Translations under genes and position numbers: made by a program
Part shown: in pieces, positions 420 through 11,061 of the stretch
How positions within the stretch are numbered: the stretch's first letter is position 1
Layout: each line of letters begins with the position of its first letter
The notes under the pieces: model-generated
The model's input: the letters and a program-made list of their open reading frames with translations, nothing else
Database searches by the model: none
Told to the model about the DNA's origin: nothing
IMG/VR virus record: IMGVR_UViG_3300030329_001963
Coordinates: 1 to 22,329 of that record
Reading direction: 5' to 3' (one strand)
Source: a virus
Length of the DNA: 22,329 nucleotides

Positions 420-556
420 AAAACCTCTCAACAATCACACTTTCTATTCTTTTCGGTGGTCTTCTTTATTGGGGGTTAACAACCTCTTTAGAAGATATGA
501 CCAGAACAGACTGTGAAATACATCAAATTGAAAAAGCTTGCGAACAACTTAAATGA
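416..556 (+). CDS. Small single-pass membrane protein, 46 aa
   Basis: A 46-codon ORF overlapping its neighbours by ATGA at both ends (416-419 and 553-556). Residues about 4-22 (LSTITLSILFGGLLYWGLT) form one hydrophobic segment behind a Lys, predicting a membrane anchor with a short acidic C-terminal tail holding two Cys (C33, C42). The perfect 4-nt overlaps on both sides are the main evidence that it is real. Function not recognised. It sits just upstream of the recombination nuclease, so it is probably expressed early. Confidence 0.6.
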   Translation: MKNLSTITLSILFGGLLYWGLTTSLEDMTRTDCEIHQIEKACEQLK

Positions 557-1353
557 CTAAAGGTACTGCTGTGATTCCTAATGCTGTTTATCATGCTGAC
601 CCAGCATATAGTTCATCAGATCTTAAGTTAATTACTAACACTTGTCCTGATGCCTTCTATAAAACTAAATATGAAGGCCAGAAAAAAGATCATGCACCTG
701 CATTAAAAAAAGCTTTCAGAGATGGTGAGCTTTGTCATGCTTTCACACTTGAACCTGAAAGAGCAAAAAAAGACTACGCAGTTTGTGCTAATAGATCCAC
801 AACAGAAGGGAAAAAACAAGCTGTTCAGATGAAAAAAGATGGCATTGAGGCCATCACTAATACTGAGCTTGAATTAGCTACAAACGTCAGTCAAGCAGTT
901 TTAAATCATTCAGTTGCCTTTGAACTTCTATCAGAAGGACAACCAGAATTAAGTTTTTGGGCTGATGATCCAATAACAGGTCTTTGCTGTAAAGCACGAC
1001 CAGATTGGCTTAGAAAAGATGGCACGATTGTTGATTTAAAAACAACAGGTGATAAAGGAGCAAAGCCGTCTGCCTTTAGCAAGACAGCAGCCAACCTTCT
1101 TTATCATCTTCAAGCTGCCCATTATTTAGAAGTAACAAAAGCAAAACGCTTTGTTTTTCTTGTCGTTGAAAAAGTTTTTCCTTTTTCAGTCGGCATTTAT
1201 GAATTAGATGAAGCAGCATTAAAAGAAGGTTTTCGCCTTCGAAATAATGCTTTGGCATTAATTAAATCTTGTCATCAAAAGGGTAAGTGGCCTACTTACA
1301 CCGATGAAATCACCTCGCTTAGTTTTCCAAACTGGGCTTTTACTTCTCATTAA
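553..1353 (+). CDS. RecE-like PD-(D/E)XK exonuclease (DUF3799 type)
   Basis: A 266-aa protein predicted to be the 5'-3' double-strand DNA exonuclease of a phage recombination pair, resecting ends to give 3' single strands for the annealing protein encoded next. Visible motifs are the N-terminal YSSSDLK segment, G58-E-L-C-H62 with the following LEP (typical of the family's first helices), ARPDW with D151, the PD-(D/E)XK signature D161-L-K163 in IVDLKTT, and the Q187-A-A-H-Y191 motif on the helix after it. Length fits phage RecE/DUF3799 nucleases, which are much shorter than E. coli RecE. The start ATG at 553 overlaps the upstream TGA. The annealase gene begins 2 nt after the stop. Confidence 0.88.
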   Translation: MTKGTAVIPNAVYHADPAYSSSDLKLITNTCPDAFYKTKYEGQKKDHAPALKKAFRDGELCHAFTLEPERAKKDYAVCANRSTTEGKKQAVQMKKDGIEAITNTELELATNVSQAVLNHSVAFELLSEGQPELSFWADDPITGLCCKARPDWLRKDGTIVDLKTTGDKGAKPSAFSKTAANLLYHLQAAHYLEVTKAKRFVFLVVEKVFPFSVGIYELDEAALKEGFRLRNNALALIKSCHQKGKWPTYTDEITSLSFPNWAFTSH

Positions 1354-1355
1354 AA

Positions 1356-2018
1356 ATGGAATCTATTTCACCTAAAAAAGAGTTGTTCCAAGCTCTACAA
1401 AAAGTTCAAGCAGAAATGCCTTCTTTGAAAAAAAGCAAAGAAGGTTTCAACTATAAATACACACCACTAGAAGAAATGCTTTCAGTAATTCAACCTGTAT
1501 TACATAAAAATGGGTTGATGTTAATTCAACCGCAAGAAGTCAGTGAACATGGTCAAACAACAATTCTTACTTGTCTGATTCATGTAGAAACAGGTCAGCA
1601 ATTACCAAGTAGGTTGCCAATTTATCTTCCAGAAAATATGGGTAACAAACCAATGTTTGCTTGGGGTGGGGCACTTACTTACGCAAGAAGATATGCCATA
1701 AAAATGATTCTTGGGATTGAGCCTGACATGGATACAAATACAGAAGATCCTGATGAATTAATTAAACATCAAATGAAGAAAACAGCTCAAGGAAAACAAT
1801 CAAATCCAGCTAAAAGAGCAGCACTAAAACCAACCAATGCTTCTGTTGCTGTCTTAGCAGCACAAGCAATTAGAAAAGCAAAAACAACTGAAGAATTATT
1901 TAGTCATAAAAAAAATGTAATGACTAGACATGCAGAAGGTCGTTTAACTGCTGATGATCAAAAAGGATTGATTGATTTGATTAATCAATGCGAATTGAAA
2001 TTAAAAAGTAAAAAGTAA
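1356..2018 (+). CDS. erf: ERF-family single-strand annealing protein
   Basis: A 220-aa protein of the ERF superfamily. These proteins bind the 3' strands made by the partner exonuclease and pair them with complementary DNA. The diagnostic features are YKYTPLEEMLSVIQPVLHKNG near residues 33-53, a central strand region with HVETG, and the core motif G104-G-A-L-T-Y-A-R-R-Y113 followed by LGIEPDMDTNTED (119-131), which matches the family's GxxxTYxRRY...DxD block. Residues after about 140 are Lys-rich and variable, with a possible small helical C-terminal domain at about 160-215. The exonuclease-annealase-SSB-like order is the classic phage recombination module. Confidence 0.9.
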   Translation: MESISPKKELFQALQKVQAEMPSLKKSKEGFNYKYTPLEEMLSVIQPVLHKNGLMLIQPQEVSEHGQTTILTCLIHVETGQQLPSRLPIYLPENMGNKPMFAWGGALTYARRYAIKMILGIEPDMDTNTEDPDELIKHQMKKTAQGKQSNPAKRAALKPTNASVAVLAAQAIRKAKTTEELFSHKKNVMTRHAEGRLTADDQKGLIDLINQCELKLKSKK

Positions 2019-2290: not shown

Positions 2291-2521
2291 ATGGAAGAAC
2301 CTTTTTTAACAACAGAACAACTTGCCGAAAGATACGGCATTAAACCTGTCACCGTTAAACGGTGGCGAAGGGACACTAGAGCAGGAAAGCCTATTGGTCC
2401 TAATTGGTACGAACTCCCAATTATGGCCGTAGCTAAAAATGCTCCTAGAGTTCGTTACCCTCTCGCTCAAGTTCTTGCTTGGGAAGAAACAAATTCAATT
2501 ACACCTATTAATCATTTTTAA
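2291..2521 (+). CDS. Excisionase/MerR-like helix-turn-helix protein, 76 aa
   Basis: A 76-aa DNA-binding protein of the HTH_17/excisionase type. The N-terminal helix-turn-helix LTTEQLAERYGIKPVTVKRW (about residues 6-25) is followed by basic RRDTRAGKPIGP and a wing ending RVRYPLAQVLAWEE, the usual form in which residues after the wing define the second helix. It starts immediately after the upstream stop with no gap. Proteins of this size and fold act as recombination directionality factors or phage regulators. No integrase is in the window, so an Xis role is only an inference. Confidence 0.75.
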   Translation: MEEPFLTTEQLAERYGIKPVTVKRWRRDTRAGKPIGPNWYELPIMAVAKNAPRVRYPLAQVLAWEETNSITPINHF

Positions 2522-2523
2522 TC

Positions 2524-2847
2524 ATGCCTTTTAACGCTGCACTTCCAAAACAAATTAAATGGTCAGTTAATGACAATCGTTTTGAAGATAAAGATAAAAA
2601 TCCTAAAAGCTTGAGCCTTTTTATTCCTAAAGAATCAATTGGTGCTTTTTGTAATCACATCATGAATATGGTAGATGATCCTGACCTTATAAAAACAGGC
2701 AAAGTTTATAATTTTGATACTCAATCAAATGAAGAGGTTGAAGGGATTTATATCAATGGCAAAGGAAAAATTAGTCAAGATGAATCTGGAGCATTTGGAA
2801 GTATTAATCCTCAAAAGATTGATGTTATTGATGAACCAGCATTTTAA
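2524..2847 (+). CDS. Probable single-stranded-DNA-binding-like protein, 107 aa
   Basis: A 107-aa protein with a strand-rich core (KQIKWSVNDNRFEDK, LSLFIPKESIGAFCNHI, EEVEGIYINGKGK) and an acidic C-terminus ending IDVIDEPAF. Bacterial and phage SSBs end in an acidic tip closing with a hydrophobic Pro-Phe-type terminus that recruits repair partners; the DEPAF end and the position after the exonuclease and annealase make a phage SSB the best guess. No clear OB-fold signature can be read by eye. It begins 2 nt after the HTH gene. It could instead be an unrelated DNA-metabolism accessory protein. Confidence 0.6.
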   Translation: MPFNAALPKQIKWSVNDNRFEDKDKNPKSLSLFIPKESIGAFCNHIMNMVDDPDLIKTGKVYNFDTQSNEEVEGIYINGKGKISQDESGAFGSINPQKIDVIDEPAF

Positions 2848-2859
2848 GGTTACTTTCTA

Positions 2860-3771
2860 ATGTCAAATTCACCTCATTTTTCTCGTTATAGAGGACGACT
2901 TTTATCCAAAAAACAAATTGAATTTTATAACAAAAGAGTGTCTCCTTATGGGTATTACCCATGGAGACAGCTTGCAAAAGAAATATTTGCTGAACATTTT
3001 GATGATTCAAGAAAAGATCATTTACTTCTTTCTAAGACGCCAAGTGTTATTGCAAATAAAGCATTTTTAAATGCTCCTGTTTTCTTTCTAACAGATGAAT
3101 TATGCAAAGCTTTTATAAAAACTAAGTTCACGAGGATTAAAATCGAGGAAAAGCCAAAAGTTATTGCTCCATATTTTATTCTTATGCAATCTACAAATAT
3201 AAATAATATAAATTATTCTTTCATAGACCAAAGTGAAAAAAAAGTAGATGTGTCGATGAGTTTTTCTTATCAATGTAACAAGACTAAAAATAGAGGTACA
3301 TATTTAAATACATTCTTTAATTGGAATGAATTTCAAAACTCACTTAATGATTCTGATGAGCTATTAACAAACTTTAAAATTGATAAAAGCAATAAAGAAC
3401 AAACAAGATTAATGAATACTATATTTAATCAAAAAAGCATACTTGTAAATTTCATTTTATTATTAAATACTCAACCAGATATTTTAACTGAAGAATACAT
3501 ACCCAATTCAACCTTACAAGGTAAAAAATCATTCAAACCAAGCAATCAAGAGTTAAAATCTTTAATTACTTGGGTAGGAAAAGATTTTACTCAACGGATA
3601 ATAAAAACAAAACCAAAGACAGATGAAATATTAGAAAAGAATACAGGTAAACCTAAAAGATCACATTGGAGGCGAGGTCATTGGCATACCATTTTGCAAG
3701 GACCAAAACGTAAACAAAGAAAAATGAAATGGTTTCAACCTGCCTTTATTGTGGGGAACTGTAAAAAATGA
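2860..3771 (+). CDS. AcrVA2-like protein (anti-CRISPR family homologue), 303 aa
   Basis: A 303-aa protein whose C-terminus (about 267-300) contains SHWRRGHWHTILQG followed by RKMKWFQPAFIVG. From memory, the anti-CRISPR AcrVA2 of Moraxella bovoculi elements (about 320 aa) ends with a closely matching block: RRGHWH, QG, then a basic stretch and W-x-Q-P-A-x-x-V. The internal VNFILLLNTQPDI (about 197-209) also resembles an AcrVA2 segment ending in PDI. AcrVA2 binds the nascent N-terminus of Cas12a and causes loss of its mRNA. Relatives occur on many mobile elements in hosts without Cas12a, so the target here is unknown. The N-terminal 150 residues are divergent. Base composition is more AT-rich than its neighbours. 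The gene starts 12 nt after the SSB-like gene. Confidence 0.65.
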   Translation: MSNSPHFSRYRGRLLSKKQIEFYNKRVSPYGYYPWRQLAKEIFAEHFDDSRKDHLLLSKTPSVIANKAFLNAPVFFLTDELCKAFIKTKFTRIKIEEKPKVIAPYFILMQSTNINNINYSFIDQSEKKVDVSMSFSYQCNKTKNRGTYLNTFFNWNEFQNSLNDSDELLTNFKIDKSNKEQTRLMNTIFNQKSILVNFILLLNTQPDILTEEYIPNSTLQGKKSFKPSNQELKSLITWVGKDFTQRIIKTKPKTDEILEKNTGKPKRSHWRRGHWHTILQGPKRKQRKMKWFQPAFIVGNCKK

Positions 3772-3796: not shown

Positions 3797-4012
3797 ATGA
3801 AAAAGAAAAAACAACTTGATAATTCTGCCAATTTCTATGAACTTGAAATGAATTATCCGTTACTTTCTTACGGAACAAGTGGATGTATTAACTGGGATTC
3901 TCACAAAGGTAAACCAGAAATGATTGCAGGCTCAGTTAAATACTTGATCAATAAAAGATTTCCTGAATTTCATTGGATTATTGAGGTCAACGACCCAAGA
4001 CAACCTAAATAA
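3797..4012 (+). CDS. Unknown small protein with strong RBS, 71 aa
   Basis: A 71-aa protein (MKKKKQLDNSANFYELEMNY...) downstream of the AcrVA2-like gene. The start at 3797 is chosen because of the consensus AGGAGG upstream; an earlier ATG at 3749 would overlap the previous gene and add 16 residues. The protein has a basic N-terminus, a middle with YGTSGCINWDSHKGKPE, and a final IIEVNDPRQPK. No known motif is recognised. Its strong ribosome site and place directly after a possible counter-defence gene make it a candidate for a related early function, by inference only. Confidence 0.65.
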   Translation: MKKKKQLDNSANFYELEMNYPLLSYGTSGCINWDSHKGKPEMIAGSVKYLINKRFPEFHWIIEVNDPRQPK

Positions 4013-8925: not shown

Positions 8926-11061
8926 CTACCCTGCTTCGAGGGCTGTGACTTTTGCTGATAGTTCTTGTACTGCATTAATCAGAATAGGAACTAACTTAGA
9001 ATACTGCATTCCATAATTACCATCTTCATTTATATGACTAACGATCATATTTTCTGAAGTATCTCCAAATCCATGCTCCTTCTCAACTTCAATTTCATCC
9101 TGTGCAATCAAACCTACATTTAATTGTAATTGTTTCTTGCTTCCATCAGGTTTACCATCCTCATAGAAACTTCTATTATCCCAACGATAAGTAACAGGAT
9201 TTAATTTATTAATCCATGATAATCCATGATTAAATGGTGTGATGTCAGTCTTATCTCTTCTATCTGATGTAACAGTCCAATCAATCTTTATATAAGCATT
9301 AGTTGGGCTATTATCTCCTAAAACTATATTATTACTTCCTGTTGTAATTGATCCTGAAGGAGATGCCGATTTACCTGCATGATTTCCTAAACAAAGATTA
9401 TTGCCTCCTGTTGTTATATCTTGTCCTGCTGTTCTACCAATAACAGTGTTGTTATCACCAGTTGTTATTGCTTCTCCTGCTGTATAACCTACAGAAGTGT
9501 TCTGTGTTCCTGTTGTGTTTGCCTCTAACGCATTAGAACCAACAGCTACGTTATTAGCTCCTGTTGTGTTCATTTCTAAAGCAATATAACCAACGGCTGT
9601 GTTATTACTTGCAGTTGTATTTTTATCTAAAGCATGATCTCCAACGGCTGTATTATTACTACCGCTTGTGTTTTCATCTAATGCTTTACAGCCAATACCT
9701 GTATTAGATGTGCCCGTATTTACTTCTAACGCTTCAAAACCTACAGCAGTGTTATTAGTTGTAGTGGTAACTGTCTTGAGTGCAGAATAACCCACGGCCA
9801 CATTTTGTACGCCAGTTGTGTTTGCTGCTAGAGCATCTTGTCCAACGGCTGTAAGGCTTGATGCAGTTGTATTAGCTCCTAATGCATTAGTACCGATAGC
9901 AGTGTTTCCCCCTCCAGTGGTGTTTGCATCTAAAGATTGCTGACCACACGCAGTATTACTAGCACCTGTTGTGTTTGCTGCTAATGAATTATCACCACAC
10001 GCAGTATTATAAGATGCAGTTGTGTTTGCTGATAATGCAGCAGTGCCAAGTGCAGTGTTTCTAGCACCTGTAGTGTTTGCATCTAAAGCGGTATTACCTA
10101 CTGCTGTGTTATTACTTGCAGTTGTGTTTGCTCCTAACGCATCTTGGCCAACGGCTGTGTTGCTGCTGCCTGTGGTGTTTACATCTAAAGCTCTACCACC
10201 CACCGCAACATTGTTGCCTCCTGTGGTGTTTGAATCTAAAGCGGTATAACCAACTGCTGTATTTGCTGAACCTGTTGTTGTTTGCCTTAATGCTTGATAA
10301 CCAAGTCCTGTGTTTGCTGTTCCTGTTGTATTAGCCTCTAAAGCTTTATAACCTAATCCAGAGTTATCTCTTGCTGTAGTATTTGAATTTAAAGCGTTAT
10401 AACCTACAGCGACCATATATTCGCCAGTCGTGTTGGATTGTAAAGCTTGATAACCCACTGCTGTATTGTCATCAGCCGTTGTGTTTGCTTCTAATGACTT
10501 GCACCCTACGGATGTATTGCTGGCCCCTGTTGTGTTTGCCTCTAGCGCCTCGTCCCCAACTGCTGTGTTGTCATCAGCCGTTGTGTTGGCTGCTAATGCA
10601 CTTTTACCAAAGGCGCTATTTTGTCCTCCTGACGTATTTGCTGCTAAAGAGCTAGAACCACAAGCTGTGTTGCTTGCACCAGAAGTTAATGTCGTTAAAG
10701 CTTCTTTTCCAATAGCTGTGTTATTTCCTCCACTTACTGAAGCATCTAAAGCACTTTCTCCAAGAACAGTGTTACCAGCAACAGAGTTTGCACCCTTACC
10801 AATAGAAACACTATTAATAGTTGCATCTGCTGACGCGGTTATGCCACCTGTAAGGGTTCTTAGATCAACCCAGCCGTCATTAGCTGTGTTTCTCATGCGT
10901 AATAAATTATTTGAAGTATCAGCCCATAGCATGTAGCTTGCAGTGGTTGAGGGGGCTGAACCGGAACTATTATTAGTTAAGATGGCCTGTAATACATTAT
11001 TTAGATCACTTCTTACATTCGCTCCTGTAGAGTTATCAATTACATAGTCGTGGGTTGCCAT
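8926..11061 (-). CDS. Side tail fibre with 17-aa repeats and S74 chaperone domain, 711 aa
   Basis: A receptor-binding fibre in three parts. Residues 1-70 are an attachment domain common in marine phage fibres (THDYVIDNSTGANVRSDLNN...PSTTASYMLWADT). Residues 93-564 are about 28 tandem 17-residue repeats with consensus ANTTGxxNTAVGxxALx, likely a trimeric beta shaft; the unit at about 447-462 has only 16 residues. Residues about 590-711 are a Peptidase S74 intramolecular chaperone: TSDRRDKTDI with the self-cleavage Ser at 599, LNPVTYRW, NVGLIAQDE, and YSKLVPILINAVQELSAKV. The chaperone trims itself after trimerisation. It lies 44 nt after J. The very regular repeats make it open to copy-number change by recombination. 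Confidence 0.88.
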   Translation of the reverse strand: MATHDYVIDNSTGANVRSDLNNVLQAILTNNSSGSAPSTTASYMLWADTSNNLLRMRNTANDGWVDLRTLTGGITASADATINSVSIGKGANSVAGNTVLGESALDASVSGGNNTAIGKEALTTLTSGASNTACGSSSLAANTSGGQNSAFGKSALAANTTADDNTAVGDEALEANTTGASNTSVGCKSLEANTTADDNTAVGYQALQSNTTGEYMVAVGYNALNSNTTARDNSGLGYKALEANTTGTANTGLGYQALRQTTTGSANTAVGYTALDSNTTGGNNVAVGGRALDVNTTGSSNTAVGQDALGANTTASNNTAVGNTALDANTTGARNTALGTAALSANTTASYNTACGDNSLAANTTGASNTACGQQSLDANTTGGGNTAIGTNALGANTTASSLTAVGQDALAANTTGVQNVAVGYSALKTVTTTTNNTAVGFEALEVNTGTSNTGIGCKALDENTSGSNNTAVGDHALDKNTTASNNTAVGYIALEMNTTGANNVAVGSNALEANTTGTQNTSVGYTAGEAITTGDNNTVIGRTAGQDITTGGNNLCLGNHAGKSASPSGSITTGSNNIVLGDNSPTNAYIKIDWTVTSDRRDKTDITPFNHGLSWINKLNPVTYRWDNRSFYEDGKPDGSKKQLQLNVGLIAQDEIEVEKEHGFGDTSENMIVSHINEDGNYGMQYSKLVPILINAVQELSAKVTALEAG
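9370..10743 (-). repeat. 51-bp tandem coding repeats in the fibre shaft
   Basis: About 27 in-frame units, period 51 bp, encoding variants of ANTTGxxNTAVGxxALx (fibre residues 107-564). Twenty uniform units are followed by one 48-bp unit and then six more of 51 bp. Units differ at the same three or four positions (the xx after TTG and after VG), which would be surface-exposed. Confidence 0.9.

Follow-up and report, generated by a model that had tools for sequence, protein, structure and literature searches.

The two described proteins closest to the gene analysed here are AcrVA2, the Moraxella bovoculi anti-CRISPR protein of PDB entries 7CI1 and 7CI2, and FinQ, an IncI-plasmid fertility-inhibition protein directed against F. 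AcrVA2 is described as reading the nascent N-terminus of Cas12a and triggering the loss of cas12a mRNA (PMC13131331, citing Marino et al.), and the same account presents it as the first prokaryotic case in which reading of a nascent peptide destroys its own mRNA. For FinQ, PMC8744291 (citing Ham and Skurray, 1989) reports that transcription of the tra operon is halted and the transfer of F thereby prevented. In the literature that we searched, FinQ is not mentioned together with AcrVA2 or anti-CRISPR, and preprints may already note the link.

By sequence comparison, AcrVA2 and FinQ are homologous over nearly the whole AcrVA2 query. Residues 66-318 of AcrVA2 matched 523 plasmid records, 503 of them conjugative; among the matches listed, most are annotated finQ and come from IncI-type plasmids (Escherichia, Salmonella, Shigella, Klebsiella), with E values of about 1e-11 and 98% of the query covered. 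The family PHROG_6160 is strongly matched by AcrVA2-like proteins of Moraxella phage Mcat24 and Shewanella phage Y11 and by proteins of Erwinia jumbo phages, with E values of 5e-107 for AcrVA2-like phage proteins and 2e-39 for FinQ, which has no Pfam or NCBIfam model match here and was found only in this unnamed family. The relatives of the two proteins also stay in one cluster when their C-terminal tails are removed. Because AcrVA2 is homologous to FinQ and both belong to PHROG_6160, one relative already has a target that is not a Cas protein. The two may share a mechanism.

Here we describe a cyanophage gene whose product carries the C-terminal module of these proteins. We propose, at a probability of about one half, that its product serves counter-defence or competition by lowering a single mRNA, and that it combines a diverged recognition half with a conserved C-terminal effector module.

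C-terminal homology of a cyanophage protein to AcrVA2 and FinQ

The window, the whole stretch of DNA that was analysed, is a 22.3-kb virus record. It contains a recombination operon with the gene order exonuclease, ERF annealase, 89-aa ORF, HTH, 107-aa gene, 303-aa gene, 71-aa ORF and zinc-ribbon ORF (Table 1). Along 99% of its length, tail protein J has 52% identity to its counterpart in Cyanophage MED4-117 (host Prochlorococcus MED4), and the identity to that of Prochlorococcus phage P-HS2 is also 52%, and the exonuclease is 47% identical to that of Synechococcus phage S-CBS1. These similarities identify the phage as a Prochlorococcus/Synechococcus-type siphophage (cyanosiphophage), in agreement with an earlier sequence-only reading that had placed the gene in the recombination operon of a probable cyanophage. 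Elsewhere in the window, the minus strand of 8926-11061 encodes a 711-aa protein with many NTTGxxNTAVGxxAL-type repeats and a chaperone-like C-terminus, probably a tail fibre.

Table 1. Features of the recombination operon and of the 303-aa protein, in window coordinates
Coordinates	Strand	Feature	Basis or remark
553..1353	+	Exonuclease VIII-type nuclease	PHROG_412, E 7e-71
1356..2018	+	ERF-type single-strand annealing protein	Operon context
2291..2521	+	HTH/excisionase-like protein	Kept in relatives whether they carry the AcrVA2-like gene or lack it
2524..2847	+	107-aa conserved operon gene; its stop codon is the left edge of the exchangeable slot	
2860..3771	+	AcrVA2/FinQ-tailed protein, 303 aa	ORF; PHROG, PDB and family-profile matches; dN/dS
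2860..3339	+	Residues 1-160, diverged N-terminal half, proposed recognition half	Tail-free comparisons
3340..3756	+	Residues 161-299, aligned by the AcrVA2/FinQ-clade profile, 55.6 bits	Profile alignment
3391..3480	+	Residues 178-207, long helix ending VNFILLLNTQPDI, counterpart of AcrVA2 LPYLLWLCVAEPDI	Model and alignment
3664..3747	+	Residues 269-296, tail block HWRRGHWHTILQGPKRKQRKMKWFQPAF	Alignment of 69 relatives
3797..4012	+	71-aa ORF downstream, GGAGG site, ATG at 3797	Seen in this phage only
4015..4230	+	NrdR-like zinc-ribbon small protein	Likeness to relatives lacking the AcrVA2-like gene starts again here

The open reading frame that the sequence-only reading had placed at 2860-3771 lies exactly there and is a real gene under purifying selection. 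It begins with an ATG 12 nt past the stop of the preceding 107-aa gene and encodes a protein of 303 aa with a pI of 9.9, for which no family was found in Pfam, NCBIfam or PADLOC. IMG/VR holds two near-copies, one of 100% identity that is divided between loci L003 and L004, and one of 91% identity (L002). Against the latter, dN/dS is 0.33 for the gene as a whole and 0.12 for its final 60 codons; the gene is therefore maintained by selection, and this purifying selection is concentrated in the tail. The tail reads SHWRRGHWHTILQG...KMKWFQPAFIVG, and H269-W275, W291 and P294 are invariant among 69 relatives. The last 60 residues are basic, with a net charge of +15 (family median +11).

A phmmer search with the 303-aa protein against all of PDB (177,635 sequences) returned AcrVA2 (7CI1/7CI2) as the sole match, with E = 0.0028 over residues 246-299. 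Two family profiles built from marine-virus and Cyanobium relatives, with members of the AcrVA2 clade left out, each gave a single significant match in PDB, again AcrVA2 (E = 5e-9 and 2e-8), so that the resemblance goes beyond chance. When profiles were aligned with each other, the AcrVA2/FinQ clade matched at 98.5% over residues 186-300. Direct matches were also obtained to PHROG_6160 (E = 6e-11, residues 91-299) and PHROG_15934 (E = 3.5e-4, residues 175-294), neither of which has a name or functional description in the library. Throughout the aligned region, the elements follow in the order long helix, PDI, V-G strand, basic linker and HxRRGHWH...G...W..P..V tail, with the PDI segment reading YLLWLCVAEPDI in AcrVA2 and NFILLLNTQPDI in the 303-aa protein, and the tail common to both proteins reading HWRRGHWH...W..P..V. 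A full-length profile match to AcrVA2 was discounted as partly circular, since the underlying alignment contained AcrVA2-clade proteins.

These alignments identify the C-terminal ~45% of the protein (residues 161-299) as homologous to AcrVA2, and we restrict the claim to this part because the match is lost when the tail is removed, rank tests are inflated and structural models disagree (see below). The sequence-only reading, which had called the protein an AcrVA2-like anti-CRISPR homologue, is upheld to this extent and not for the full length. Its description of a C-terminus that nearly reproduces the end of AcrVA2 overstated a similarity that falls short of near-identity, while the similar overall length that it noted (303 aa against a 323-residue AcrVA2 chain) and its matching internal segment (VNFILLLNTQPDI, which aligns with LPYLLWLCVAEPDI of AcrVA2) both hold.

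As in AcrVA2, then, the C-terminal ~140 residues present the same helix-PDI-strand-RRGHWH order in a phage-borne, early protein, but the N-terminal half of AcrVA2 is not demonstrably homologous to its counterpart here, the cyanophage gene has no neighbouring acr genes, and the probable host family is mostly without CRISPR. With FinQ, a known inhibitor of gene expression from a different element, the protein shares PHROG_6160 membership and an RRGHWHTYW tail; FinQ is plasmid-borne and acts on the F tra operon, whereas the 303-aa gene is phage-borne.

An alternative that we consider unlikely is that only a short RNA- or ribosome-binding tail is common to this protein and AcrVA2, the rest being unrelated, as in an RNA-binding or translation-modifying early protein. 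When the tail block and the 12 residues preceding it were removed, hhalign found no match between the window clade and the AcrVA2/FinQ clade; the tail-free window clade did match a cyanobacterial-plasmid clade (98.2%). An iterated tail-free profile gathered 111 cyanobacterial and cyanophage members without ever reaching AcrVA2, and among these members the tail is absent only where a copy of this gene is truncated or interrupted. Tail-free FinQ and the 303-aa protein likewise fell into separate clusters, between which no cross-matches were found. Residues 1-160 are thus homologous throughout the cyanobacterial/cyanophage clade and not demonstrably so to AcrVA2 or FinQ, and the tail itself occurs on several mutually dissimilar upstream parts. 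Against a tail-only relation, however, the alignment reaches 80-100 residues upstream of the tail with the long helix, PDI and V-G strand in the same order and spacing, and total length and tail position match those of AcrVA2. Tail-free rank tests placed AcrVA2-clade proteins above decoys with p values of 8e-5 and 1e-3, and a reverse test gave an AUC of 0.77, all three figures being inflated by relatedness within the sets. With the tail block left out, these rank tests alone hint at shared ancestry upstream of it.

Predicted structures bear on both sides of this question. For a first model (pLDDT 71), Foldseek returned AcrVA2 (7CI1) as the sole significant PDB match (E = 5e-4, probability 0.94, TM 0.28), whereas no match to AcrVA2 was found in PDB for a better, AlphaFold model (pLDDT 78). 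The fold comparison suggested with the sequence-only reading is accordingly divided, a weak match in one model and none in the other, and we do not use the first as proof because the better model fails to reproduce it. The tail is predicted as four short strands behind a low-confidence linker, which agrees with the published description of the C-terminal domain of AcrVA2 (PMC10846135). Among viral models (BFVD), the best structural neighbour is K7XS91, an uncharacterised protein of the uncultured Mediterranean phage MEDS5 group (E = 5e-13, TM 0.55, 21% identity).

An exchangeable early cassette

Of the 80 IMG/VR loci with the nearest exonucleases, only 5 contain the AcrVA2-like gene, and one of these (L003) is this phage. 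It is absent from loci L290-L294, in which the exonuclease is 94-96% identical. The replacement is precise: L002, bearing the 91%-identical homologue, has 92-94% identity to L291 on either side, on the left as far as the 107-aa gene extends and on the right starting with the following gene, and between these flanks lie 0.93 kb with the AcrVA2-like gene in L002 and 0.47 kb with an unrelated 132-aa gene, without a PHROG match, in L291. Similarity between the window and L291 stops at 2849 and starts again in the zinc-ribbon gene. Cyanophage MED4-117 has the same operon without the AcrVA2-like gene. The gene at 2860-3771 is an exchangeable early cassette, and exchangeable accessory genes of this pattern are typical of phage anti-defence loci. 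Small orphan genes occupy the same slot in near-identical phages (L291:2761-3156, L290:9074-9388 and L294:9714-10049) and are themselves candidate anti-defence genes.

Because the gene is habitually found near recombination genes, a role in DNA metabolism is possible, and the protein could assist the recombination machinery (exonuclease, ERF annealase and 107-aa protein) as an accessory component that acts on DNA or RNA ends. Many marine contigs carry family members near homologues of the ERF or 107-aa genes, and the copies in Cyanobium have Rad52-like and Mu Gam-like genes in their neighbourhood. Nevertheless, the phages with 94-96% identical exonucleases keep a complete module without the gene, no homologue of the 303-aa protein was found in the exonuclease regions of MED4-117, KBS-S-2A and S-CBS1, and the relatives AcrVA2 and FinQ act on the expression of other genes. 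We therefore judge this explanation improbable.

The sequence-only reading had further paired the gene with the small downstream gene as a possible counter-defence pair. The consensus ribosome-binding site that it noted is present, but the partner is not conserved, and the pair is unsupported because the 71-aa ORF is unique to this phage; in L002 the gene is followed by a different one, whose homologue sits in L291 without the AcrVA2-like gene. The HTH gene, the sole one nearby, was considered as the dedicated, linked regulator (Aca) of an Acr-Aca operon and rejected, because it is conserved with or without the AcrVA2-like gene.

Host CRISPR content and proposed mode of action

Cas12a is unlikely to be the target, since CRISPR is rare in picocyanobacteria: among 201 genomes of the picocyanobacterial family, Cas1 was detected in 13, in a search whose control worked, and an AcrVA2/FinQ-tailed member in 14. 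The Cas12a model TIGR04330 matched none of the 201, a result that counts as weak evidence only, because control genomes were silent too. That the protein is a true anti-Cas12a factor, an orthologue of AcrVA2, would accord with its similar tail but is extremely improbable in view of these counts and of a recognition half not demonstrably related to that of AcrVA2; the function implied by the earlier label "anti-CRISPR" is not to be transferred to it. The same sequence-only reading had doubted Cas12a as a target and proposed another host protein, and both points are supported, the second being made plausible by the homology of AcrVA2 to FinQ, which acts on F-plasmid tra expression.

In the counter-defence or competition reading that we favour, the diverged N-terminal and central part would recognise one specific protein of the host or of a rival element during its synthesis, and the conserved basic C-terminal module would respond by bringing about the loss of the mRNA that encodes this protein, the effect that AcrVA2 has on cas12a. 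A defence factor other than Cas12a, or a competing element, would in this way be silenced pre-emptively. For the 303-aa protein, this reading predicts that it recognises a nascent peptide and causes mRNA decay, that its target is related to defence, and that it is divided into a recognition half and an effector half. One point against it is that FinQ is reported, in the account of PMC8744291, as a transcription terminator and not as a nascent-peptide-dependent factor.

A broader version, which we offer tentatively, would make the RRGHW tail a general mRNA shut-off effector of bacteria that phages and plasmids have joined to many recognition halves, with the "termination" ascribed to FinQ being nascent-peptide-directed mRNA loss. 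AcrVA2 (acting on Cas12a), FinQ (on F tra) and the cyanophage protein (on a picocyanobacterial defence or rival gene) would then be three instances of it.

The comparison places an AcrVA2-type tail module in a separate tail-free cluster and in hosts whose usual target for it is unlikely to be Cas12a. Through the link to FinQ, the family gains a second, independent target that is known from genetics and is not a Cas protein, and with it a convenient test system in E. coli. Should the mechanism prove to be shared, the cyanophage members would point to new defence genes of the photosynthetic bacteria that are most abundant, and recognition halves found in nature would be candidates for programmable mRNA knock-down.

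Distribution of the tail module

A search for the HWRRGHWHT motif gave 76 stretches from IMG/VR and 19 from a species-level genome set, the latter all from cyanobacteria and nearly all of Cyanobium/Synechococcus/Vulcanococcus type. Among isolate cyanophages in the phage collection, no homologue of the conserved domain was found, the sole match being to a separate N-terminal domain of a fused relative. The tail module is widespread in marine and freshwater cyanophages and in Cyanobium.

Tail-bearing proteins form at least four clusters, of 105 members (including the 303-aa protein), 32, 22 and 15 (AcrVA2/FinQ), and upstream of the tail no cluster matches another. Those of 32 and 22 were gathered by the tail motif itself and are therefore linked to the others by the tail alone. 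Mutually dissimilar upstream parts are what would be expected if one module serves different recognition halves.

Several further groups of loci were observed. Marine phage loci selected by the motif, within the range L020-L136, contain two more large families, of GTHASP..HWRRGHWR and GQGSPKREHWRRGHWR types, that have only the tail motif in common with the 303-aa protein. Many close relatives in marine phage loci such as L074, L108 and L150 bear an N-terminal extension of 150-280 aa, which in L074 and L108 contains a DUF5824/PHROG_28338 domain; this domain is also present in a separate protein of Prochlorococcus phages MED4-117 and MED4-184. On chromosomal contigs of Cyanobium, Synechococcus and Vulcanococcus (L188-L206), single genomes hold several near-identical AcrVA2/FinQ-tailed genes, which lie within multi-kilobase segments shared between species, in one case (L195) with Rad52-like and Mu Gam-like genes nearby, and these shared segments suggest an undescribed mobile element.
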